From: Phycisphaerae bacterium | GTDB taxonomy: Bacteria; Planctomycetota; Phycisphaerae; JAJVII01 | Length of the DNA: 64,000 nucleotides | Reading direction: 5' to 3' | Assembly (NCBI GenBank): GCA_022072085.1 | Contig: JAJVII010000025.1 | Span: 1-64,000 of the forward strand | Shown: positions 25,161 through 47,978 of the stretch, piece by piece | Numbering within the stretch: the first letter of the stretch is position 1 | How the letters are laid out: each line of letters begins with the position of its first letter | Translations under genes and position numbers: made by a program | The notes under the pieces: generated by a model | What the model was told of the DNA's origin: nothing | Databases searched by the model: none | What the model saw: the letters and a program-made list of their open reading frames with translations, nothing else

Positions 25161-25290
25161 CAGTCTTCGTTCGCCGCGAGAGGCCCTCGCGGCGAACTTC
25201 GCCTTGGCAAGCCAGTCCCACCCGGCGCGTCGTCCACGCCCAATGCAGCGAACGAAGACTGCCACGGCGTAGCAAAGCCAAGCCGGGCAT
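25161..25290. repeat. Nested palindromic intergenic element
   Basis: CAGTCTTCGTTCGC (25161-25174) and its exact reverse complement at 25248-25261 form an outer stem; within it, TTCGCCGCGAG (25170-25180) and CTCGCGGCGAA (25186-25196) form a perfect 11-bp inner hairpin. The right flank GCCACGGCGTAGC (25261-25273) is followed by AAGCCGGG, a sequence seen again at 34139-34163. It fills most of the 230-base gap before the small GIY-YIG gene. Confidence 0.65.
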
Positions 25291-26010: not shown

Positions 26011-26066
26011 GCTCAGGAGGCCCTGACGCTCCATGACCACCCGGCAGCCGCAATCAGATTTCCTAT
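26011..26066 (+). repeat. Interspersed repeat, copy A (RBS plus leader-peptide start)
   Basis: The core 26014-26064 begins CAGGAGGCCCTGACG and has ATGACCACCCGGCAGCCG 19 bases after its first base. By manual alignment it differs from copy E (32814-32864) at 3 of 51 positions. The ATG opens a 14-codon frame (MTTRQPQSDFLWYS) that stops at 26077, inside the GAGGAGG that precedes the Nudix gene. Confidence 0.75.
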
Positions 26067-26094
26067 GGTATTCCTGAGGAGGAAATGACGGAAG

Positions 26095-26976
26095 ATGCCT
26101 CGCGTTCAGACAATCGTCTACCGAAACGGGCGCGTGCTTCTGGTGAGACACCGGGCGGCAGGCAAGGAACATTGGTGCCTGCCCGGCGGAGCGCAGCTGG
26201 CGGGGGAATGCCCTGAGGCCGGGGCACTTCGCGAGCTAGCGGAGGAGTGCAACGTGCAAGGCGTCGTGGTCCGACAGACCTCCCATGTCGCAGGCGCTCT
26301 TGGCGATGAGACTCTCACTTTTCTGGTGGACATAGGCGAGCAAGAGCCAACGCTTGGTCGCGATCCGGAACTGGCGGATGACGAAGCCGTCCTCACCGAT
26401 CTGGCGTGGTTAGCACTGGACGAGATTGCCGAGCGGGACCGTGTCTATCTTTGGGCCGCAGGCGCTCTTGGTGTTGGAGACTTCCTGAAGGACGTGCAGA
26501 CGTGGGGGGATGTGATCAGTTACCCAGGGAACGACAGGTGCCCCGCCTTCGGGCAGCGACTAGCCGGTGTTGACTACGTGGAACGACCGGGTTCCTACGC
26601 CATCATACAGGATGAAGACGGCCGTGTGGCTGCTGTCGAATCTGGTACGGACCTCCACCTGCCCGGCGGGGGCAGAGAGCCTGGCGAGACGGACGTTGAA
26701 TCGCTTCAGCGCGAGTGCCGCGAGGAATGCGGGTTGGCCATCGAGGTCCTTGATCGGATCGGCAGGGCGATCCAGTACGGGATCAGCCGGCAGGGAGAGC
26801 CCATCGCAAAAGCCTGCGACTACTTCCGTGCTCGTGTGCTGGCAAGCGAACCAGGTGAGGTCCCGGCCAAGGGCGAACGGCTTCGGTGGGTAACGGTTGA
26901 TGAGGCAACTCAATGCCTTGCCCACGAGGCTCACGCCTGGGCGCTGCGCAGAGCCACCACGTCGTGTCGCCATTAG
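26095..26976 (+). CDS. Tandem Nudix hydrolase (two complete Nudix domains)
   Basis: A 293-residue protein with AGGAGG at 26077-26082, 12 bases before the ATG. Residues ~1-140 are one Nudix domain with box GAQLAGE...RELAEECNV (the usual G before the last residue is N), residues ~155-290 a second with box GGREPGE...RECREECGL. Both keep the REx2EE metal ligands. The first domain starts RVQTIVYRNGRVLLVRHR, like housecleaning Nudix enzymes. Nudix enzymes hydrolyse nucleoside diphosphates linked to another group; substrate cannot be read from the sequence. Tandem double domains are uncommon. Neighbours are the nuclease island upstream and a recombinase remnant downstream. Confidence 0.85.
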   Translation: MPRVQTIVYRNGRVLLVRHRAAGKEHWCLPGGAQLAGECPEAGALRELAEECNVQGVVVRQTSHVAGALGDETLTFLVDIGEQEPTLGRDPELADDEAVLTDLAWLALDEIAERDRVYLWAAGALGVGDFLKDVQTWGDVISYPGNDRCPAFGQRLAGVDYVERPGSYAIIQDEDGRVAAVESGTDLHLPGGGREPGETDVESLQRECREECGLAIEVLDRIGRAIQYGISRQGEPIAKACDYFRARVLASEPGEVPAKGERLRWVTVDEATQCLAHEAHAWALRRATTSCRH

Positions 26977-27040
26977 AACACGCTCAATTGCGAGTAGTTG
27001 CGGATAACCCACCCACCACCGCGGGCCAGGGGGTCCCGGC

Positions 27041-27080
27041 CAGCCAGGAACGCCTCATGTCCGCCCGGCGGCCGAAATCA
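27041..27080 (+). repeat. Interspersed repeat, degenerate copy B
   Basis: CAGCCAGGAACGCCTC leads to ATGTCCGCCCGGCGGCCGAA, which matches the conserved start (MTTRQPK to MSARRPK). The spacer between the CAGGA and the ATG is 12 instead of 19 bases. It lies 65 bases after the Nudix stop codon. Weaker than the other copies. Confidence 0.4.
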
Positions 27081-27388
27081 CCCGGTGGACCACTTCCGCC
27101 CCTGCTCATCCCACCGCTCCGGCACGCGCTTGCACAGCTTGGTCAAGCTCATCCCGCTCGGCTCGTTCCCGGCCAGAATCGCCTGCACGATGTCCGGGGG
27201 CAATAGGGTGAGGTGAAGCATCCGGCTGATGTCACTGCGGCCGACCCCCACTTGACCGGCCAGGTCGTCCGGCGACTTGACGTTGCCTGTGTCGCGCATC
27301 GCCGGCTCTTGACGAGCACCCGATTCAGGCGTAAGTCTGACTCTACTGGAGTCCGGGGCACGACTACCTGGACAAGTGCCAGCCGCAA
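27078..27388 (-). pseudogene. C-terminal remnant of a serine-recombinase-type protein, frameshifted
   Basis: On the minus strand, 27314-27078 codes for AMRDTGNVKSPDDLAGQVGV followed by GRSDISRMLHLTLLPPDIV and AILAGNEPSGMSLTKL. This is the HTH-like C-terminal segment found in many site-specific recombinase/resolvase genes (pattern: A.REG...S..SR.LRL..L.PDIV.AIL.G). Upstream, a different frame (27388 to about 27300) gives LVQVVVPRTP...LNRVLVKSRR, the expected preceding part, so the reading frame is broken. No catalytic serine domain is present. It seems to be a decayed mobile-element gene and sits between the nuclease island and the chromosomal genes. Confidence 0.6.
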
Positions 27389-27425
27389 CGGCTGGAGGTA
27401 GAGACGCGAACGGTGAGGTGAACAA

Positions 27426-30077
27426 ATGAAAAACTACTGTGCGAAAGTCATGGCCTTGGTCGCAACCGTCGCAGCCCTTGGGCTGGCCTTGCCGGGATTT
27501 GCACAGGCCGGCGAACCTGCGGGCCCGCCCACATTCACAAAGGCGCCGAGTGCCGTCAAGGCATCTGATGGACGAGTGCAGATCGAGTTCGCCGTTTCGG
27601 CGTCGACCGATGTTGAAGTGGCTGTTCTCGGGGCTGACGGCAAAGTGGTACGCCACTTGGCGGCCGGGGTCCTGGGCGGGAAGGAAGCGCCGCCGGCGCC
27701 GCTCAGGCCGGGCCTGACCCAGGAAATCGAGTGGGATGGCAAGGACGACGATGGGCTTCCCGTGCCCGCCGCAGCCTTACGCGGAGGCGGTTCCGTCCGC
27801 GTCCGCATCGGAATGGCCGTCAAACTGGACAAGATCGTGGGCGGCGATCCCTATGCTTTCTTCTCCAGCGAGATCCAGCACCACAACCACAGCATCTGGA
27901 CGATTGCCGGCATCGATGCCAAGCCTGACGGATCCGTCTACGTCTTCGGCACGGCCGGCCAGCAGGGGCCGTACACGGTGCGGCAGTACGATGCCGACGG
28001 CAACTACATCCGCACCGTGTTTCCGTTCCCGGCCGGGATGGCGGCGGAGAAGATCAGCGGCTGGGGCGTCAACCGCCTGGCTGACGGCAGCTATGCCCCG
28101 GTCATCTCCAAGGGACTGAGCAGTTGGCCCTGTTATTCAAGCACGGTGATCAACGCCATGGCGGGATTTGGCCCGCAGCCGGTGCTCCTGCCCACGGCCG
28201 ATCCCGACACCCTCACCGTCGCCGGTGCGGACCGACTGAACCTGCTCACTTTCCACACCGACGGGTCGATCGCCCCTGACCCCAAGGTGCACACGGCCAC
28301 GCACCTGGTGCAGAACCCGCCACTGATTTCCTGGACGGCCTGGGACCATTCGAGCCTGGCCCTTGGCGGCATCTACACCTGTCCCACCGCGGACGGAAAA
28401 GGCTTTTACCTCAGCGGCATCTGCCGCACCGACGACAAGCCGTTCTGGCGGCCGGGCCAGGTGTGGAAGGTCGACTACGCCACCCGCACCGCGAAGCCCT
28501 GGTTCGCCCTGCCTGCCGAGCAAGTCGCCGGGTTCAAGGTTACCGGGACGAGTCAGAGGTGCTATACGCCGCTTCAGGGCGTTGCGGTGGACGGCGCCGG
28601 CCACGTCTTCGTCTGCGACCGTCAGAACAACCGTGTTGCAGTGCTCACGGAGGACGCCACGCCCGTTCGCGATCTGGCGGTGACCAATCCGGACGATGTC
28701 GCCTACGACACCGAGGCCAACGCGCTCTATGTCACCACCCGTTTCGGGCGGCAGGGAGCCCCGGGCGACGTTCAACTGCTTCGCTTCGATGACTGGGCCA
28801 AGGACGACAAGCCGGCGCTGCAGATGAAGCTGTGCGTCAATGACATGGTCATCCTGCCCCGGGAACGCACCTGCATCCGGATCGTCGGCGCCGGGGCGAA
28901 GAAGCGCATCTGGATCGGCTACAAGGATCTGCCAGTGCGCATCTACCGGGAGAAGGGTAAGGAACTGGAACTCGTGCGCGATTTCTATCAGTCGGGCCAA
29001 AAGCTGCGCTACCTGGCGTTCCGCAGCATGGTGGTCGACCCGGTCACCGAAACCGCCTTCTTTGCCTCGGGCTGCGGCGACGTGTGGAAGCTCCGGGACT
29101 GGGATAAGGCCGACTTCCGCCAGTGCCGCGATGCCGCCGACCAGCCCAGAGGGGATTTCCACGGCGGCCGCTCCTCCGATCCCCGGCAGATATTCGCCGC
29201 CGATGTGGCGATCGACAGCCGCAACCGCTATCTCTTCACCCGGCAGAACAACAACGACAGGGTCTACCGCTGGAAGCTCGATGGCGAGGACCACGCCCGC
29301 GCCCCGGTCGGCAAGACCGGCAGCCCGGTCTACTCCGATGTGCTGGTCATGAACGAATGGCCCGGCTCGCTCTACTTCGACCGCGGCATGTGGCCCTCGC
29401 CCGACGGCGGCATGCTCGTGCTGGGCGGCACGCCGCGCATAAACTACCTGGACGTCCACCTGTTCTATCACCCCGTCGATCCGGTTAATGGACCGGGCAA
29501 GTGCGAAGCGTTGCTGAAACCCGGCGCCATGTGCGGCGGCCTGCGCGTGGACCGGCAGGGCCGCATCTACCTCGGCATCTGTCTGCCGGACAACCTTCCC
29601 AAGCCGCCCGCCGGGTTCACCGGCGACTGGGCCTACGGCAAGCTCATGGGCAGGATCGCCGTATATGAACCCACCGGCACGGGAGCGCGTCTTTACCCCG
29701 CGCCGCTCAAAGGCCCCTCCAAGGTCTACGACGTGCACTATGGCCTCATATCGCGCGATTCCAGTCAAGTCGGCTTCTCGCCGCGATTCGGCGTCGACGA
29801 CTACGGACGCATCTGCTATCCCAACACCCTGACCCGCAGCGTGGCGCTGATGGACAATGCCGGCAACGAGATCCTGCGCTTTGGAACATACGGCAACATC
29901 GACGATTGGCGCAAGCTTGAGGGCCGCTGGAGTGAGGCCGAGGCCATTCCTCTGTCCTGGCCCGGCTCGGTGGACGCGACCGACCGCCATATCTACGTGG
30001 CCGACCATGCCAATGTGGGGGTGCTACGACTGCGAAAGACCTTCGCGGCGGCGGAGACGGCGGAGGTGGGCCAATGA
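27426..30077 (+). CDS. Secreted beta-propeller (NHL-repeat-like) protein
   Basis: An 883-residue protein with GGTGAGGTGAAC before the ATG. Residues 1-28 are a signal peptide (VATVAALGLALPGFAQAGE). Residues ~45-130 look like a FlgD-type Ig domain (VEVAVLGADGKVVRHLAAG, then IEWDGKDDDGLPVPAA). The rest shows repeated blades in the style of NHL propellers: IDAKPDGSVYVFGTAGQQGP, GVAVDGAGHVFVCDRQNNRV, LRVDRQGRIYLGICLPDN, and a final VDATDRHIYVADHANVGVL. Large extracellular propellers of this type are frequent in Planctomycetota and often sit near polysaccharide genes; activity unknown. Repeat copy C begins 12 bases after the stop. Confidence 0.7.
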   Translation: MKNYCAKVMALVATVAALGLALPGFAQAGEPAGPPTFTKAPSAVKASDGRVQIEFAVSASTDVEVAVLGADGKVVRHLAAGVLGGKEAPPAPLRPGLTQEIEWDGKDDDGLPVPAAALRGGGSVRVRIGMAVKLDKIVGGDPYAFFSSEIQHHNHSIWTIAGIDAKPDGSVYVFGTAGQQGPYTVRQYDADGNYIRTVFPFPAGMAAEKISGWGVNRLADGSYAPVISKGLSSWPCYSSTVINAMAGFGPQPVLLPTADPDTLTVAGADRLNLLTFHTDGSIAPDPKVHTATHLVQNPPLISWTAWDHSSLALGGIYTCPTADGKGFYLSGICRTDDKPFWRPGQVWKVDYATRTAKPWFALPAEQVAGFKVTGTSQRCYTPLQGVAVDGAGHVFVCDRQNNRVAVLTEDATPVRDLAVTNPDDVAYDTEANALYVTTRFGRQGAPGDVQLLRFDDWAKDDKPALQMKLCVNDMVILPRERTCIRIVGAGAKKRIWIGYKDLPVRIYREKGKELELVRDFYQSGQKLRYLAFRSMVVDPVTETAFFASGCGDVWKLRDWDKADFRQCRDAADQPRGDFHGGRSSDPRQIFAADVAIDSRNRYLFTRQNNNDRVYRWKLDGEDHARAPVGKTGSPVYSDVLVMNEWPGSLYFDRGMWPSPDGGMLVLGGTPRINYLDVHLFYHPVDPVNGPGKCEALLKPGAMCGGLRVDRQGRIYLGICLPDNLPKPPAGFTGDWAYGKLMGRIAVYEPTGTGARLYPAPLKGPSKVYDVHYGLISRDSSQVGFSPRFGVDDYGRICYPNTLTRSVALMDNAGNEILRFGTYGNIDDWRKLEGRWSEAEAIPLSWPGSVDATDRHIYVADHANVGVLRLRKTFAAAETAEVGQ

Positions 30078-30088
30078 AGACGAGGAGT

Positions 30089-30170
30089 ACCCCCAGCCGC
30101 ATCCAGGAGGCACCGGCCAGCCGGGGCCGCCCCGGACCACCCGGCAGCCGAAATCAAGTTCCCTATCATT
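30089..30170 (+). repeat. Interspersed repeat, copy C
   Basis: It has the CCCCCAGCCGCATCCAGGAGG left part shared with copies D and E; then GACCACCCGGCAGCCGAAAT at the same 19-base spacing from CAGGAGG, but the ATG is changed to CGG. The downstream frame (TTRQPKSSSLSF) is still open until a TGA at about 30190. Confidence 0.75.
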
Positions 30171-30222
30171 TATCCATTTCCACAGCAGTTGAAAGCGATT
30201 GCCTGGGTGGGGTGATCGCGTG

Positions 30223-30251
30223 TTGCCGACGGGTGAACACACAAGTAATAT
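30223..30251 (+). promoter_or_regulatory. Candidate promoter for the sulfatase gene
   Basis: TTGCCG (30223-30228) and TAATAT (30246-30251) with a 17-base spacer, 131 bases upstream of the sulfatase ATG and downstream of repeat copy C. The -10 matches 4 of 6 consensus bases. Confidence 0.4.
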
Positions 30252-30381
30252 CTGAGCAACGCGCTAATCCTGTACCTCATGGCGGGGGCTGCGGTGTAAC
30301 TGCTGCCGGGCGGTGATTGATGTCTCTGCGGCAGATTGGCCAGAGCCCACGCGTCGGGTCTTGCCGAGGCACATTCCGATC

Positions 30382-31695
30382 ATGACGCAGCATCGCCCGA
30401 ATATCCTCTACGTTTTCGCCGACGAGCATCGTTGGCAGTCCATGGGACACACCGAACTGCCGCAACTGCGGACGCCGGCGATGGATAACCTGGCCCGGCA
30501 GGGGACGTCATTTACTCAATGCATCAGCAATTATCCGGTCTGCTCGCCGCACCGGGCCATGCTCATGACAGGGGCTTGGCCGTTCGACCAGGGGGTGGTT
30601 GATAACGGCATCGCCCTGGGACACGACCGCCCGACAATCGGAAAGGCATTTCGCTCGGCCGGTTACGCGACCGGCTACATTGGCAAGTGGCACCTCGGCG
30701 GCACGCGGGCCGAGCCGCTCGGGTTCGACCATTCACAGATATGGACGAACGTCAGCAGGCACTGGAATTCGTGCTGGCATCCAGCCGATGGTCTGCCGAT
30801 CGGTTACGACGGCTACAACACCACCGGGATGACCGACCAGGCCATCGACTACCTGCGCCGGCGCGACCCAGGCAGGCCGTTTCTGCTCATGCTTTCGCTG
30901 AATACCCCGCACTCGCGGTTCACCGACGCCCCCGAGCAGTTCCTGCGGCTGTATCCGGATCAGGCCGCATTGCCTTGTCGCGGGAACCTGGACCTGCAAG
31001 CTGATGTTCACATGGTCGCCGGCGGCGGCTCATCGCTGTGGGACATCTACCGTGGCTATCACGCCCATGTCTCGGCCGGCGATGGTGAACTGGCCCGACT
31101 GCTTGGCGAATTGGACGCCTTGGGCCTTTCCGACGATACCGTCGTGATCTACACGTCCGATCACGGCTCGATGGTTGGTTCCAACGGCCACGAGGGCAAA
31201 CGTCTGCCGCACGCCGAATCGATCCGCGTGCCGTTCATTATTCGCTGGCCCGGCCGAATCGCCCCCGCCGTTGAACTCGATGACCTGTTCGGCAGCATTG
31301 ACATCGCCGCAACGCTGTGCGGGCTGGCCGGCGTTACGCCCCCGGCAGGGGGCGCCGGGCGCGACCTGTCCGGACTGATCCTGCATGGTTCCCGGCCCGC
31401 AGCCGGCCAGCCGGGCGCGGACTCGCAGTTCATCATGCACATCGCCAAAGACCAAGCCAGCGGCGGGTTGAGCCACCCGGCGCCGCTGTTCCGAGGCGTG
31501 ACCACCGGGCGCCACACCTGGGCCGCCACCGTTGAAGGCGCCGCGGTCTTGTTCGATAACGTCGCCGACCCGCTACAGCGCAGCAACCTGGCGTCCGATC
31601 CGGCGACCTTCGACCTGCAAAGGCACCTGCACCGCCTGACCGCCGATTGGCTGGCACGGGCCAAGAATCCTTTTCAACTGCCTGCGCTGCAATAA
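30382..31695 (+). CDS. Type I (formylglycine) sulfatase
   Basis: A 437-residue protein; ATG 30382 is chosen because the family starts at RPNILYVFADEHR; an upstream GTG at 30313 adds 23 unlikely residues. The maturation motif is CSPHR with cysteine 54, converted to formylglycine in this family, followed by AMLMTGAWP. Metal-binding aspartate 14 (FADEHR) and the late VIYTSDHGSMVGSNG block are present, and the end of the catalytic domain shows ESIRVPFIIRWPG. No signal peptide is seen, unusual as most planctomycete sulfatases are exported. The substrate is probably a sulfated polysaccharide, but cannot be told from the sequence. The repeat copies C and D flank the gene. Confidence 0.88.
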   Translation: MTQHRPNILYVFADEHRWQSMGHTELPQLRTPAMDNLARQGTSFTQCISNYPVCSPHRAMLMTGAWPFDQGVVDNGIALGHDRPTIGKAFRSAGYATGYIGKWHLGGTRAEPLGFDHSQIWTNVSRHWNSCWHPADGLPIGYDGYNTTGMTDQAIDYLRRRDPGRPFLLMLSLNTPHSRFTDAPEQFLRLYPDQAALPCRGNLDLQADVHMVAGGGSSLWDIYRGYHAHVSAGDGELARLLGELDALGLSDDTVVIYTSDHGSMVGSNGHEGKRLPHAESIRVPFIIRWPGRIAPAVELDDLFGSIDIAATLCGLAGVTPPAGGAGRDLSGLILHGSRPAAGQPGADSQFIMHIAKDQASGGLSHPAPLFRGVTTGRHTWAATVEGAAVLFDNVADPLQRSNLASDPATFDLQRHLHRLTADWLARAKNPFQLPALQ

Positions 31696-31700
31696 CCCCC

Positions 31701-31775
31701 TCACCCCCCAGCCGCATGAAGGAGGCCCTGAATCCGCATGACCACCTGGCAGACAGAATCAAGTTTCTTATCATT
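31701..31775 (+). repeat. Interspersed repeat, copy D (contains the start of the next gene)
   Basis: It begins 6 bases after the sulfatase stop: CCCCCCAGCCGCATGAAGGA, then GGCCCTGAATCCGC and ATGACCACCTGGCAGACAG. The ATG (31738), 19 bases after the AAGGAGG position, is the start codon of the following gene. Confidence 0.75.
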
Positions 31776-32826
31776 CAACTGTACATGCCTGGCGGCTGTC
31801 CTGATTCTTCTTCCAGTGGCCGCGTTGGCCAAGGAGGCCACGACCATGCCCGAGGATTGCCCGTATGTGGCCGTGCGGCTGGACGGAAACCCGATCATCT
31901 CGCCCGCGACCCCCGGCCTCGAACGGGGCGATAAGAACATCAACGGGCCGTCGCTCATCCGCGTGCCCGACTGGGTGGACAAGCCGCTGGGCAAGTATTA
32001 CCTCTACTTCGCCAACCACGGAGGGCGCTACATCCGGCTGGCTTATGCCGACAAGCTAACGGGCCCGTGGAAGATTCACCGCGGTGGCGTGCTGAACGTC
32101 CGCCAGGGGCCCGGGCAGGAGCACATCGCCAGCCCGGACGTGCATGTCGATGACGATGCCCGGCAGATCCGCATGTATTTCCACCAGCCGGCGGCCAAGG
32201 ATTCGGCGCTGAAGGGCCAGGTCAGTTTCGCCTCGACCTCGCCGGACGGGCTGGCCTTCGCCCCGAAGCCGGAACCGCTCGGGTCGTATTACTTCCGCGT
32301 CTTCCGCTACGGTGGCTGGCACTACGCGCTGGCCAAGAACGGCAACAAGGACGGGATTCTCTCACGATCCCGCGACGGTCTGACCGGCTTTGAGACGGGT
32401 CCCAGCATCCTGCCGCGGGTCCGCCACACGGCCATGTGGCTGGAGGGCGACACGCTCTGGCTGGTCTACACAATCGTCGGCGAGGCCCCGGAGCAGATCT
32501 ACCTGTCCACGATGCACCTGGCCGGCGACTGGCGGAACTGGAAACCGTCGCCCGGCTGGAAACTGCTGGCGCCGGAGACGGAGTACGAGGGCGCGGACCT
32601 TCCGCTGAAGCCGTCGAGCTTCGGCGGCATCGGTGGCCCCGTCCGCCAGCTTCGCGACCCGGCCATCTTCCGCGAGGACAACCGAATCTACCTGCTCTAC
32701 TCGATCGCCGGCGAACAGGGACTGGCCATCGCAGAGTTGAAACGGAAGCAGACGCGACATGCTGCCCCCTCCGATGATAGGGCAGAAGAGAGCCCCCCAC
32801 CCCCAGCCGCATCCAGGAGGCCCTGA
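31738..32826 (+). CDS. Secreted five-bladed beta-propeller, GH43/GH32-like
   Basis: A 362-residue protein. The start lies in repeat copy D, with AAGGAGG in the usual place. A short MTTWQTESSFLSF lead precedes a signal peptide core (LAAVLILLPVAALAKEA). The mature part follows the GH43/GH32 propeller style: NPIISPATPG, NGPSLIRVPDWVD, GKYYLYFANHGG, SPDVHVDDDARQIRMYFHQ, RQLRDPAIFREDNRIYLLYS. Such enzymes cleave beta-fructans, arabinans or xylans; catalytic acids were not assigned with certainty. The C-terminal PPPPAASRRP and the TGA stop are read from repeat copy E, so the natural end of the gene may have been altered. Confidence 0.7.
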   Translation: MTTWQTESSFLSFNCTCLAAVLILLPVAALAKEATTMPEDCPYVAVRLDGNPIISPATPGLERGDKNINGPSLIRVPDWVDKPLGKYYLYFANHGGRYIRLAYADKLTGPWKIHRGGVLNVRQGPGQEHIASPDVHVDDDARQIRMYFHQPAAKDSALKGQVSFASTSPDGLAFAPKPEPLGSYYFRVFRYGGWHYALAKNGNKDGILSRSRDGLTGFETGPSILPRVRHTAMWLEGDTLWLVYTIVGEAPEQIYLSTMHLAGDWRNWKPSPGWKLLAPETEYEGADLPLKPSSFGGIGGPVRQLRDPAIFREDNRIYLLYSIAGEQGLAIAELKRKQTRHAAPSDDRAEESPPPPAASRRP

Positions 32827-32873
32827 CGCCCCATGACCACCCGGCCGCCGAAATCAGATTTCCTGCCAGTTGT
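32793..32873 (+). repeat. Interspersed repeat, copy E
   Basis: CCCCCACCCCCAGCCGCATC followed by CAGGAGGCCCTGACG and ATGACCACCCGGCCGCCG (ATG 32833). The TGA inside CCCTGACG is the stop codon of the upstream gene. GAAATCAGATTTC (32850-32862) is a perfect palindrome. The ATG opens a 50-codon frame to about 32985 with no clear product. Confidence 0.75.
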
Positions 32874-33217
32874 TGTTCTTGGGCAACACGATGTTGATGC
32901 TTTTCAACATGGAGGGAAGACCGGCCCGGGCAGCGGCGGGCGGGCGCGCTTCCTTACTCTAGTCGCGTCCTTGGCTTACGCATGATTCACGGCACCGCCG
33001 GCCGTTCTGGTACGCCATTTGCATGCATCCAATCATACCGCAACTTCTGTCATACACCCTGTAAACCATAGTGCTCTACGCTTCGACTTCTGCCGAGGCA
33101 TGCCTCGGAGAGGCCCGGCTGAGCCGCGGCATCTGAAATGAGAGGGGAGCCAGGAATTGCCGGCGTGTTCCTTCCTGTCCTTAGGTCCTGTGGGCCGGGT
33201 CTTTTCAGAAGGGAGAC
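32874..33217. other. Intergenic region upstream of the PEP-CTERM gene
   Basis: After the repeat, this stretch is less GC-rich in its middle (CCAATCATACCGCAACTTCT), which would suit a promoter and 5' leader, but no confident -35/-10 pair was found. GCCGAGGCATGCCTCGG (33092-33108) is a perfect inverted repeat around GCATGC. Confidence 0.4.
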
Positions 33218-34030
33218 ATGACGATGATTCGTTCACAAGGATCGATCTCTCGCTCGCTCGCAGGCCCCTGTTACCTGATGACGTGTGTGGCGCTGGTCCT
33301 GTTGGCCGGTGCGCCCGCGGTCCACGCCGACGTGTTTCTCGATCTGACTGCCGTCACCCCAGGCGGACCTGGCGTCGGGACATTTTCCGGAACGCTTGGC
33401 GGAGTCACGGTCTCCGGAAGCATTTCCTCCGGCGGACCCGCCGCGTTCTTCTTCAATTCACCCGGATTCGGGATCGGCGATTCGACGATTGATGGCTCCT
33501 CGCCGCAGTTCAGTTATTCAAGCGTGTTCGGCCCCACGATCCCGGCAACGGATCGGGTCGGCTTCACGTACACAGCCACGGCGGGCAATCTTGTAACCCT
33601 GACGTTCAGTTCGCCGGTCACCAATCCCGTGTTTCACATAGCCAACCTGGACTGGGGCGCTTTCAGTTTTGTCGTGACGCCGGGTTTTTCGAGCCTGACA
33701 CTGCTCAAGGGAAATGACGGGCCGGACGGTGACGGAATCGACCCGGCATTTGGCGGACCGTCCTACAGCTTCGGCCTGGTGTGGGACCACACGCCTCCGA
33801 CAACCGACGCCACGGTACCCACGGTCTCTCCACCCACGTCGGGGGGGCGTTCGGCTTATGCGTCCGTGCGAATCGACGGGACGTTCAGCGCGATCAGTTT
33901 CGTGACCGATGCCATGGGCCCGTTCAGCGATAGTGGCAGCTTCACGATTTCGACCGTGCCCGAGCCGGCGACGCTCGGCCTGCTGGCCACAGGCGGCGCA
34001 CTGCTGATACGCTGCCGCCGTCGAGGCTGA
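33218..34030 (+). CDS. PEP-CTERM sorted extracellular protein
   Basis: A 270-residue protein with GAAGGGAGAC before the ATG. Residues ~10-36 are a signal peptide (LMTCVALVLLAGAPAVHAD). The last 26 residues are a canonical PEP-CTERM signal: VPEPATLGLLATGGALLI, then an arginine-rich RCRRRG tail. Such proteins are cleaved and anchored by an exosortase and usually coat the cell or biofilm. The mature part is glycine, serine and threonine-rich with strands like LVTLTFSSPVTNPVFHIANL, resembling other PEP-CTERM proteins of Planctomycetota. No exosortase gene lies in the window. Confidence 0.85.
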   Translation: MTMIRSQGSISRSLAGPCYLMTCVALVLLAGAPAVHADVFLDLTAVTPGGPGVGTFSGTLGGVTVSGSISSGGPAAFFFNSPGFGIGDSTIDGSSPQFSYSSVFGPTIPATDRVGFTYTATAGNLVTLTFSSPVTNPVFHIANLDWGAFSFVVTPGFSSLTLLKGNDGPDGDGIDPAFGGPSYSFGLVWDHTPPTTDATVPTVSPPTSGGRSAYASVRIDGTFSAISFVTDAMGPFSDSGSFTISTVPEPATLGLLATGGALLIRCRRRG

Positions 34031-34083
34031 GTCGCGCGCGTTCGCGATGGTAGAGCGGGACGCCCACCATCTGTTACCCCCCC

Positions 34084-34209
34084 CGCCCCGGCCGCATCAA
34101 GGCTTGCCGTGGCGAAGCCGAAGGCGAAGACAGGCTCGCCACGGCGTAGCGCAGCGAAGCCGGGAGGCCCTGGGCGAAGTCGAAGGAACCCCCCATGACC
34201 ACCCGGCAG
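34084..34209 (+). repeat. Interspersed repeat, copy F, split by a second palindromic repeat
   Basis: The left part CCCCGGCCGCATCAAGG (34086-34102) and the right parts GGGAGGCCCTGG (34162-34173) and ATGACCACCCGGCAG (34195-34209) are those of the repeat. Between them lies a hairpin element: GCCGTGGCGA (34106-34115) and TCGCCACGGC (34136-34145) are exact complements. The following GTAGC...AAGCCGGG matches the flank of the element at 25248-25285. A GCGAAGTCGAAGG string also separates GGAGG from the ATG. Confidence 0.65.
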
Positions 34210-42357: not shown

Positions 42358-42423
42358 TGAAGGTCTTGCCCGCTGCCAGTCCCGCCGCCCGCCAGCGATC
42401 CCGTCCGCCGCCGCCCGGGCCGC

Positions 42424-42453
42424 TTGCGAGGGCGGGAGCGGCGGCACTATAAT
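42424..42453 (+). promoter_or_regulatory. Candidate strong promoter for the GH4 gene
   Basis: TTGCGA (42424-42429) and a perfect TATAAT (42448-42453) with an 18-base spacer, 52 bases upstream of the GH4 ATG at 42505. Confidence 0.6.
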
Positions 42454-42504
42454 CGCCCCTCCCGCGGCAGCCGGCCGCATGTCACACGGGAGGCGCTTAT
42501 AGTC

Positions 42505-44031
42505 ATGCCCGTCACCGTCGCCATCATCGGGGCCGGGAGCATCGGCTTTACACGCCGCCTGTTCCGCGACATCCTCAGCGTCCCGGAACTGGCCGACACG
42601 CACTTCGCCCTCACCGACATCAGCCGCCGCAACCTGGAGATGGTCGCGCAGCTCTGCCGCAAGGACATCCGCGGCAACCGCCTGTCCGCGACGGTGTCGC
42701 ACACGACCGACCGCCGCCGGGCCCTGGCCGGCGCCGACTTCGTCATCAACTGCACGCGGATCGGCGGGCTGGAGGCCTTCGCCCTGGACGTCGACATCCC
42801 GCTGAAGTACGGCGTCGATCAGTGCGTCGGCGACACGCTCTGCGCCGGCGGGATCATGTACGGCCAGCGGAACATCCCCTGTATCCTCGATTTCTGCCGC
42901 GACATCCGCGAGGTGGCCGCCCGCGACGCCCTGTTGCTCAACTACGCCAACCCCAACGCGATGAACACCTGGGCCGCCAACGTGCACGGGCGGGTGAACA
43001 CGATCGGCCTGTGCCACGGCGTCGCGGGCGGCCACCGCCAGATCGCCGAGGTCATCGAGCTGCTGGTCAACGACGGCCGCAAGCCCGGCTCGCCCGGGTT
43101 CACGCCGGTGACCGCGAAGGACGTTCACATCATCTGCGCGGGCATCAACCACCAGACGTGGTACGTCCAGGTCCGCTACCGCGGCCGGGACTGGACCGGG
43201 CGGCTGCTCGAGGGCTTCCGCCGCCACCCCGTCTTCCGCCGCACCGAGAAGGTCCGCATCGACGTGCTGTCTCGCTTCGGCTACTACAGCACCGAGAGCA
43301 ACGGCCACCTCTCGGAATACGTGGCGTGGTATCGCAAGCGCCCGCGCGAGATCCGCCGCTGGATCGACCTGTCGCGCTGGATCAACGGCGAGACCGGCGG
43401 CTACCTCCGCGTCTGCACCGAGGGACGCAACTGGTTCCGCACGGACTTCCCCAACTGGCTCAAGGCCGAGGACCGGCCCATCGGCCCGGACGACCGCAGC
43501 GGCGAGCACGGGAGTTGGATCATCGAGTCGCTGGTGACCGGGCGCGTCTATCGCGGCCACTTCAACGTCGTCAACAACGGCTGCATCGCGAACCTGCCGG
43601 CCGACGCGATCGTCGAGGTTCCCGGCTACGTCGACGCCAACGGCGTGTCGATCCCGCGGGTGGGCAACCTGCCGCTGGGGTGCGCCGCGGTGTGCAACGC
43701 GTCGATCACCGTGCAGCGGCTGGCCGTCGAGGCGGCTGTCCGCGGCGACGTCGGGCTGCTCAAGCAGGCGATGATGATGGACCCGCTGGTCGGGGCGGCC
43801 TGCGACCCGAACGAGATTTCGCAGATGACCGACGAGATGCTCGTGGCCCAGCGGAAGTGGCTGCCGCAGTACGCCGGGGCGATCGCCGCCGCCCGCCGAC
43901 GCCTGGCGACGGAGAAGCCGCTGGGCCGTCATAGCGGCCGCGGCGCCGCACGCCTGCCCACGCGGACCGTCGGCCAGATGAAGCGCACCAGCGGGCAGGC
44001 CCGCCGCAACGCCGCCGCCGCGGACAAGTAA
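42505..44031 (+). CDS. Glycoside hydrolase family 4 (alpha-galactosidase/galacturonidase-like)
   Basis: A 508-residue protein; ATG 42505 follows CGGGAGG and begins at the conserved PVTVAIIGAGSIGFTRRLF, the NAD-binding site. GH4 features: FALTDISRRNLEMVAQLC, DFVINCTRIGGLEAF, CVGDTLCAGGIMYG (metal cysteine region), LLNYANPNAMNTWA and TIGLCHGVAGGHRQ, HIICAGINHQTWYV. GH4 enzymes are NAD+ and Mn2+-dependent, work by redox elimination and act on alpha-galactosides, galacturonides or phosphorylated sugars. The C-terminal 40 basic residues are an extra tail. The gene has its own promoter. Confidence 0.88.
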   Translation: MPVTVAIIGAGSIGFTRRLFRDILSVPELADTHFALTDISRRNLEMVAQLCRKDIRGNRLSATVSHTTDRRRALAGADFVINCTRIGGLEAFALDVDIPLKYGVDQCVGDTLCAGGIMYGQRNIPCILDFCRDIREVAARDALLLNYANPNAMNTWAANVHGRVNTIGLCHGVAGGHRQIAEVIELLVNDGRKPGSPGFTPVTAKDVHIICAGINHQTWYVQVRYRGRDWTGRLLEGFRRHPVFRRTEKVRIDVLSRFGYYSTESNGHLSEYVAWYRKRPREIRRWIDLSRWINGETGGYLRVCTEGRNWFRTDFPNWLKAEDRPIGPDDRSGEHGSWIIESLVTGRVYRGHFNVVNNGCIANLPADAIVEVPGYVDANGVSIPRVGNLPLGCAAVCNASITVQRLAVEAAVRGDVGLLKQAMMMDPLVGAACDPNEISQMTDEMLVAQRKWLPQYAGAIAAARRRLATEKPLGRHSGRGAARLPTRTVGQMKRTSGQARRNAAAADK

Positions 44032-46997: not shown

Positions 46998-47978
46998 ATG
47001 GCCATCCTGCTCAAGTGTCACCAGTGCCAGGAACAGCTTGAGGTCGACGACGCCTTCGCCGGCGGCATCTGCCGGTGCGTCCACTGCGGGGCCCTCTCCC
47101 ACGTACCCCACCAGCGCACCGAGCTGGACCGCAAGGGCCGACCCAAGACGCCGCCGCCGATGGCCAAGCCGGTCGTCGCCTCCGAAGCCGAACTGGACAA
47201 GATGCAGATCGTCGAAGCCAACCGCTTTGTCGCCGCCCAGAAGCGACGCGGACTGCTGGCCATTGCGATGATCGTCGTCGCCGTCGGGCTGGCCGTCATC
47301 CTCATTTGGCTGCTGCGACAGAACAAGCCCGAAGACGACGGAACGAAAGACAAGAACAAGAACTACAATCCGCCCGGCGCGGTGGTCGTGGAGCGCAAGT
47401 TCGCGAACCTGTGCGGGCTGACGCTGCCGGCCGGGCCGACGGCCTACCTGCTGGACACCGGACACGGGATCGGAATGAGCGGCGGCCTGGAGCTGACCTG
47501 GGCGAAGGTCGTCATCGAGATGTCGCTGGCCAGCCAGGGCGACGCCGCAGACAAGTGCAAATTCGTCGTCTCGACGTGGGAAGACCACAAGACGTTCATG
47601 GGCGAGAGCGTCGAGGCGCCCAAGACGTTCCCCGAGACGGGCCTGTCGGACTGCACCGAGGAGAACCGGAACGCCGTCGCCGACTGGCTGACGCCGATCC
47701 GCCCGGGCGAGAACACCTATCCCGCGCCGGCGGTCGAGCTGGCCCTGGCCCGCGGGGCGACGGTCATCGTGCTGATCGTCAAGAGCGACCTGACCGCGGA
47801 ACAGGCCGACGCCATCGGCAAGCTGACGGCCGGCAAGTCGGTCACGCTGCGGGCGGTGGCGTTCAGCCTGGAGAAGCCCGAGACGTTCGCGAACCTGGCC
47901 AAGGCCGTTGGCGGGGCCGAGAACGTTTCGACGGTGACCGTCGAGCAGCTCGAGAAGTGGCAGAAAGAGCCGCAGTAG
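46998..47978 (+). CDS. Membrane protein with zinc ribbon and VWA-like domain
   Basis: A 326-residue protein. Residues 4-33 form a zinc ribbon (CHQCQEQLEVDDAFAGG, then CRCVHCG), residues ~88-112 a membrane segment (GLLAIAMIVVAVGLAVILIW), and residues ~140-320 an alpha/beta domain with PTAYLLDTGHGIG, AKVVIEMSLASQG, FVVSTWEDHKTF and VTLRAVAFSLEK, similar to a von Willebrand factor A fold; the DxSxS metal motif is degenerate (DTGHG). Planctomycetota have many such zinc-ribbon/TM/VWA proteins of unknown role. It begins 85 bases after sppA. Confidence 0.65.
   Translation: MAILLKCHQCQEQLEVDDAFAGGICRCVHCGALSHVPHQRTELDRKGRPKTPPPMAKPVVASEAELDKMQIVEANRFVAAQKRRGLLAIAMIVVAVGLAVILIWLLRQNKPEDDGTKDKNKNYNPPGAVVVERKFANLCGLTLPAGPTAYLLDTGHGIGMSGGLELTWAKVVIEMSLASQGDAADKCKFVVSTWEDHKTFMGESVEAPKTFPETGLSDCTEENRNAVADWLTPIRPGENTYPAPAVELALARGATVIVLIVKSDLTAEQADAIGKLTAGKSVTLRAVAFSLEKPETFANLAKAVGGAENVSTVTVEQLEKWQKEPQ

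Follow-up and report, generated by a model that had tools for sequence, protein, structure and literature searches.

What are the short repeats that separate single genes in this part of a planctomycete genome, and which process placed them there? In the window, i.e., the whole 64,000-nucleotide stretch of Phycisphaerae bacterium DNA that was analysed, a sequence-only reading had described repeat copies (A–F) between consecutive genes, and had proposed either a cassette array or the serial duplication of one 5' gene end that carries a ribosome-binding site (RBS) and the start of a conserved peptide. Our comparisons with other genomes lead to a different reading: the repeats are very probably decayed, non-autonomous miniatures of the right (origin, oriIS-like) end of a Planctomycetota IS91-family rolling-circle transposon.

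The interspersed copies themselves are real. All six were found where they had been reported and on the forward strand (Table 1), the pattern CATGACCACCCGGCNGNCGAAATCA has five matches in the window (0.00 expected from 100 shuffles), and the three differences over 51 positions between copies A and E were reproduced (94% identity). Their tie to gene borders also held, given that the copies sit between genes. The proposed spacing of exactly 19 bases from CAGGAGG to the ATG (CGG in copy C) applies to copies A, D, and E, but not to copy C, which has extra bases before the CGG; the spacing is not general because the copies differ in completeness. Only nine clear copies exist genome-wide: the window, on contig C35, has six, and contig C34 has three, which are fuller; a single strand is shared by all six window copies and likewise by all three C34 copies. 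By alignment, the element is up to ~117 nt long and consists of a C-rich left end, an optional palindromic module (GGCTCGCCACGGCGAAGCC...GGCGAAGACAGG), a middle (AGGAGGCCC...CATGACCACCCGGCAGCCGA), and a 19-nt right-end motif, AATCAAATTTCCTATCAGT (hereafter, M). The window copies have drifted from this motif: 14–16 of its 19 positions are kept in copies A, C, D, and E, and it is gone from B and F, whereas one C34 copy has an exact M. The extra palindromic module of copy F (GCTTGCCGTGGCGAAGCC...GGCGAAGACAGG) is found in all three C34 copies. A second palindromic repeat, of the GCCACGGCGTAGCGCAGCGAAGCCGGG type, is nested in copy F (window 34102-34165) and also occurs near 25261 (25165-25287); it looks like another repeat family.

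Table 1 Repeat copies in the window and on contig C34, and the genes between the window copies
Feature	Position	Strand	Description
Copy A	26014-26070	+	5'-truncated, left part absent; right end AATCAGATTTCCTATGGTA, 14/19 to M
NUDIX protein gene	26095-26976	+	between A and B
Copy B	27026-27080	+	weak; CCGGCCAGCCAGGAACGCC middle retained; ends at AAATCA, without right end
883-aa NHL-repeat protein gene	27426-30077	+	between B and C
Copy C	30089-30170	+	C-rich left end ACCCCC; right end AATCAAGTTCCCTATCATT, 16/19 to M
Sulfatase gene	30382-31695	+	between C and D
Copy D	31697-31775	+	left end directly at sulfatase stop codon TAA (31693-31695); right end AATCAAGTTTCTTATCATT, 16/19 to M
362-aa ORF	31738-32826	+	between D and E; signal-peptide-like N-terminus partly from copy D; no match in Pfam search
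Copy E	32793-32870	+	C-rich left end; right end AATCAGATTTCCTGCCAGT, 16/19 to M
PEP-CTERM protein gene	33218-34030	+	between E and F
Copy F	34078-34209	+	split; C-rich left end; right end absent after CGGCAG
C34 copy	42423-42538	-	91% identity to 117-nt consensus
C34 copy	47163-47279	-	89% identity to 117-nt consensus
C34 copy	47591-47695	-	91% identity to 117-nt consensus

A search with the repeat core, which the sequence-only reading had proposed, found it both in this genome and in its relatives, the opposite of the absence that would have spoken against that reading. Exact M is present in 117 stretches of public GTDB genomes, mostly from Planctomycetota and chiefly from Phycisphaerae and Pirellulales; a few exact-M records are labelled KSB1, Poribacteria, Kiritimatiellia, Lentisphaeria, or Actinomycetota, and some of the records outside Planctomycetota may be binning errors. 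When one mismatch was allowed, 51 of 397 same-class genomes contained M, the richest of them 22 times; as a control, the reversed M pattern was searched in the same 397, and it gave zero matches in every genome listed. The relatives have the right end in common, often with quite different middles. In a viral collection, M was found in only five contigs.

The DNA upstream of M connects the motif to an enzyme. A 1.3 kb stretch is homologous between one Pirellulaceae and one Phycisphaerae locus, which belong to different classes, and codes for a 481-aa transposase open reading frame (ORF) with the domains PF04986 Y2_Tnp (6e-25) and PF14319 Zn_Tnp_IS91 (N-terminal, zinc-binding) and the motifs HWHPHIH and YYGWY; this transposase, the best preserved of those near M, scores 167.8 bits with NCBI's IS91 family equivalog NF033538, above the cut-off of 125. 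At nine loci, M follows a transposase gene or remnant at a distance of 70–450 nt, and exact M stands 3' of transposase relatives or remnants (40–69% identity) at L138, L189, L124, L214, L217, L202, L176, and L228, some of these relatives being frameshifted or truncated. In a PF04986 census over 397 genomes (E ≤1e-10), M was present in 11 of the 24 genomes with the domain vs 40 of the remaining 373 (Fisher p 4e-5). In four genomes (G128, G002, G134, and G292), the contigs with related transposase genes break off shortly behind the gene, as would be expected at a repeat. More distant IS91 relatives within the phylum lack M, and therefore M is the tag of one subfamily. Since it lies downstream of a transposase that passes the IS91 equivalog cut-off, M is the origin (oriIS-like) end of a rolling-circle transposon of IS91 type. 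Outward-reading Sigma70-like promoters were seen between the transposase gene and M at L321 (G052:C4, 2435-2903), L235, L138, and L214, and in one type, an intrinsic-terminator-like hairpin precedes the promoter.

The elements thus have the same right end that, in other genomes, follows closely behind an IS91-family HUH transposase gene, and the window copies have this origin end in common, without the transposase, in several copies with different flanks. Their attribution to the transposon goes mainly through the fuller C34 copies, including the one with exact M, and through a genome of the same family (G001). No Y2 transposase match at E ≤1e-10 was obtained in the window genome (G000), and its two copy-bearing contigs (C34 and C35) show no remnant of the transposase subfamily. 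An IS91 transposase was not found in G000, G001, G052, and G056, all of which carry copies; G052 keeps a C-terminal remnant that precedes the C-rich element type. With no Y2 transposase detected and drift in most copies, the window copies are best read as relics of a transposition process that looks extinct in this genome.

How such short copies could arise is suggested by their ends, which fit the IS91 type. The right end is constant. On the left, some copies have a sharp WAACCCC boundary before the C-rich tract, with AAA or TAA most often directly before the C-rich start, and others are truncated further in. The C-rich tract left of M has two C4+ runs in 69 of 161 copies (19 in shuffles); on the presumed transferred strand it is G-rich and could form quadruplexes, and our guess is that it serves as the left terminator. 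Directly after M, the tetranucleotide WAHY was found in 25 of 159 copies (16% at +1 vs about 4% further out, p 2e-9), and the commonest tetranucleotide there, TAAC, resembles the left-end WAAC; this target preference at the M flank is significant but weak vs IS91/IS801. Exact partial repeats of the 3' end (4–19 nt) follow directly after M in 28 of 161 copies, and at L228, L257, and L159, another element begins immediately after M or after a partial 3' repeat. Two loci with a homologous right flank, from one genus each, have one element (L087 in G038) and two tandem elements (L090 in G059), a pair that we read as a natural copy gain directly behind M.

In IS91-type transposases, rolling-circle transfer starts at the right end and normally stops at the left end (PMC3189936). 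For IS801, 26% of the insertions were right-end fragments with a left edge at a tetranucleotide like the left terminus, and one-ended transposition has been measured, in which upstream DNA was carried along at low frequency (PMC3189936). In the mechanism that we propose, an IS91-type transposase would nick at M and the bottom strand, starting ACTGATAGG, would be transferred; replication would then end where the element itself ends on the left, or prematurely at a target-like tetranucleotide, which would give short copies. If the M of a resident copy were nicked, the next copy could land directly behind it, and this would produce tandem copies, partial 3'-end repeats, and possibly co-oriented arrays.

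The repeats can be compared with several known systems. Like the right-end miniatures of IS801 in Pseudomonas syringae (229, 360, and 679 nt; PMC3189936), they are fragments with a common IS91-type right end; those miniatures derive from one-ended transposition and have left ends at a target-like tetranucleotide, whereas the elements described here are 60–120 nt long with a sharp C-rich left boundary, form a multi-genome family across the phylum, have a looser target, and include tandem and 3'-partial copies. The transposase is related to those of ISCR1 and other ISCR elements (PMC6218425), and promoter-like sequences lie near M, but it reaches only 138.6 bits against the ISCR clade Ia cut-off of 925 and passes the IS91 model, and the window copies are too short for the promoter seen in longer copies. 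Rolling-circle transfer, a subterminal hairpin, and truncated and non-autonomous copies are also features of Helitrons (PMC4778049), from which the bacterial elements differ in that no helicase domain was found in the transposase and its domain make-up is of IS91 type. The transposon end and its miniatures are apparently undescribed, none having been found in the literature searched (ISfinder not included).

The gene-repeat-gene layout noticed in the window recurs in other genomes. In counts that use gene calls from a simple codon-usage script, and in which individual gene contexts may therefore be wrong, M copies that neighbour each other within 6 kb mostly point the same way (27:4, p 3e-5; spacing 0.3–3.5 kb), one gene lies between them in 14 of 23 scored cases, the genes are mostly co-oriented (18:5), and M agrees in orientation with both flanking genes in 49 cases and is opposed in 12 (p 2e-6). 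Several causes of these arrays are conceivable: new copies may insert locally behind resident ones, insertion may favour one strand, outward transcription may be selected for, or upstream genes may be captured; in ISCR1, outward promoters near oriIS read into co-oriented downstream genes (PMC6218425).

Upstream-gene capture would correspond to a true cassette array, in which a gene and its downstream element are mobilised together through left-end read-through and are integrated behind an M already in place; genes would then accumulate as in an integron, but by means of an HUH transposase. The co-orientation of copies and genes, the predominance of single genes, the agreement of M with both neighbours, and the insertion of elements exactly behind M are all in line with this model, as is the low-frequency transfer of upstream DNA by IS801 (PMC3189936). 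However, the same gene and element with different right flanks did not appear among the matches listed, where gene-plus-element units present twice were only self-overlaps, shared descent, or element homology. The single synteny test, from one congeneric comparison, showed a break at the element and not the clean insertion of a unit. In an empty-site search with joined flanks in three congeneric genomes, flanking orthologues without the element were found, but these flanks are rearranged and not neighbours, so that no clean empty site was obtained; this weighs against the transposon-end reading, as do the absence of a transposase match in four copy-bearing genomes, the weak target preference, and the drift of the window copies from M. 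We consider a cassette origin of the arrays improbable, and hold it similarly unlikely that an IS91-type HUH transposase, inserting beside its own end, builds integron-like, co-oriented one-gene arrays with the C-rich tract as left terminator. With attC arrays of integrons proper, the repeats share the co-oriented gene-repeat-gene order and a 60–120 nt repeat 3' of the gene, but GTTRRRY was not found after the right end, the flank is variable, paired attC-type arms are not obvious, and the enzyme is HUH and not a tyrosine recombinase; an integron attC was rejected because the flank composition has no conserved GTTRRRY.

The transposon-end reading also bears on the peptide M-T-T-R-Q-P-K-S-D-F-L, for which coding selection had been suggested. 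This suggestion did not survive a codon test over 12 codons in seven copies, in which 9 of 34 changes were synonymous (0.265 vs 0.271 expected) and third positions changed least (16/11/7 changes by codon position). Nor is the frame conserved: in G001, one extra base shifts it (MTTRTPRIKFPIS) and the DNA motif stays intact. ATGACCACC is absent altogether from most other genomes, and the RBS-like stretch and the ATG are part of the variable middle that most of them lack. On the codon test and the G001 frame shift, both a leader peptide and a duplicated gene start were rejected. What is conserved is not one 5' gene end, serially duplicated, but the DNA end motif M, common with IS91-family transposons, and the supposed conserved peptide in the repeats is incidental.

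A 5'UTR regulatory motif or leader peptide common to a regulon might be expected from the copies that often lie 10–60 nt upstream of a start codon, and from one upstream type with a sigma70-like promoter just before M. It is nevertheless highly improbable, since the codon statistics are neutral and the frame is unconserved, the downstream genes are unrelated, 22 of 106 copies lie between convergent genes and some overlap genes, the Rfam search gave no match up to E 1, and the motif is a transposon end linked to a transposase. A known structured RNA was rejected on the same Rfam search. A SINE-like retroposon, with a constant 3' end, slippage repeats at that end, and 5' truncation, would match the 3' partial repeats and the 5' truncation seen here, but hardly any weight can be given to it, since 5 of 14 M-bearing genomes searched, including the 22-copy G052, lack an RVT_1 match and the enzyme linked to M is an IS91 transposase; a reverse-transcriptase-driven retroposon was rejected on this RVT_1 census.

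Read as relics of a transposon end, the window copies also touch the genes beside them. The exported-protein ORF that follows copy D (31738-32826) is read in the frame of that copy's ATG (31738), which may have been recruited as the start of the ORF; copy D is a possible exception to the incidental peptide and a candidate for the passage from mobile-element end to gene start. The predicted signal peptide of this ORF begins MTTWQTESSFLSF, i.e., with transposon-derived codons. At the other end of the ORF, copy E provides the stop codon (TGA, 32824-32826), and its first part (window 32793-32826) also encodes the final residues, about PPPPAASRRP.

These results call for caution in annotation, given that a short repeat can pass for a leader peptide when it contains an RBS-like stretch and an ATG. 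The formation of arrays by a rolling-circle transposase becomes testable through strain comparison, and M provides an exact 19-nt tag for annotating a widespread transposon end and its miniatures in a little-studied phylum.
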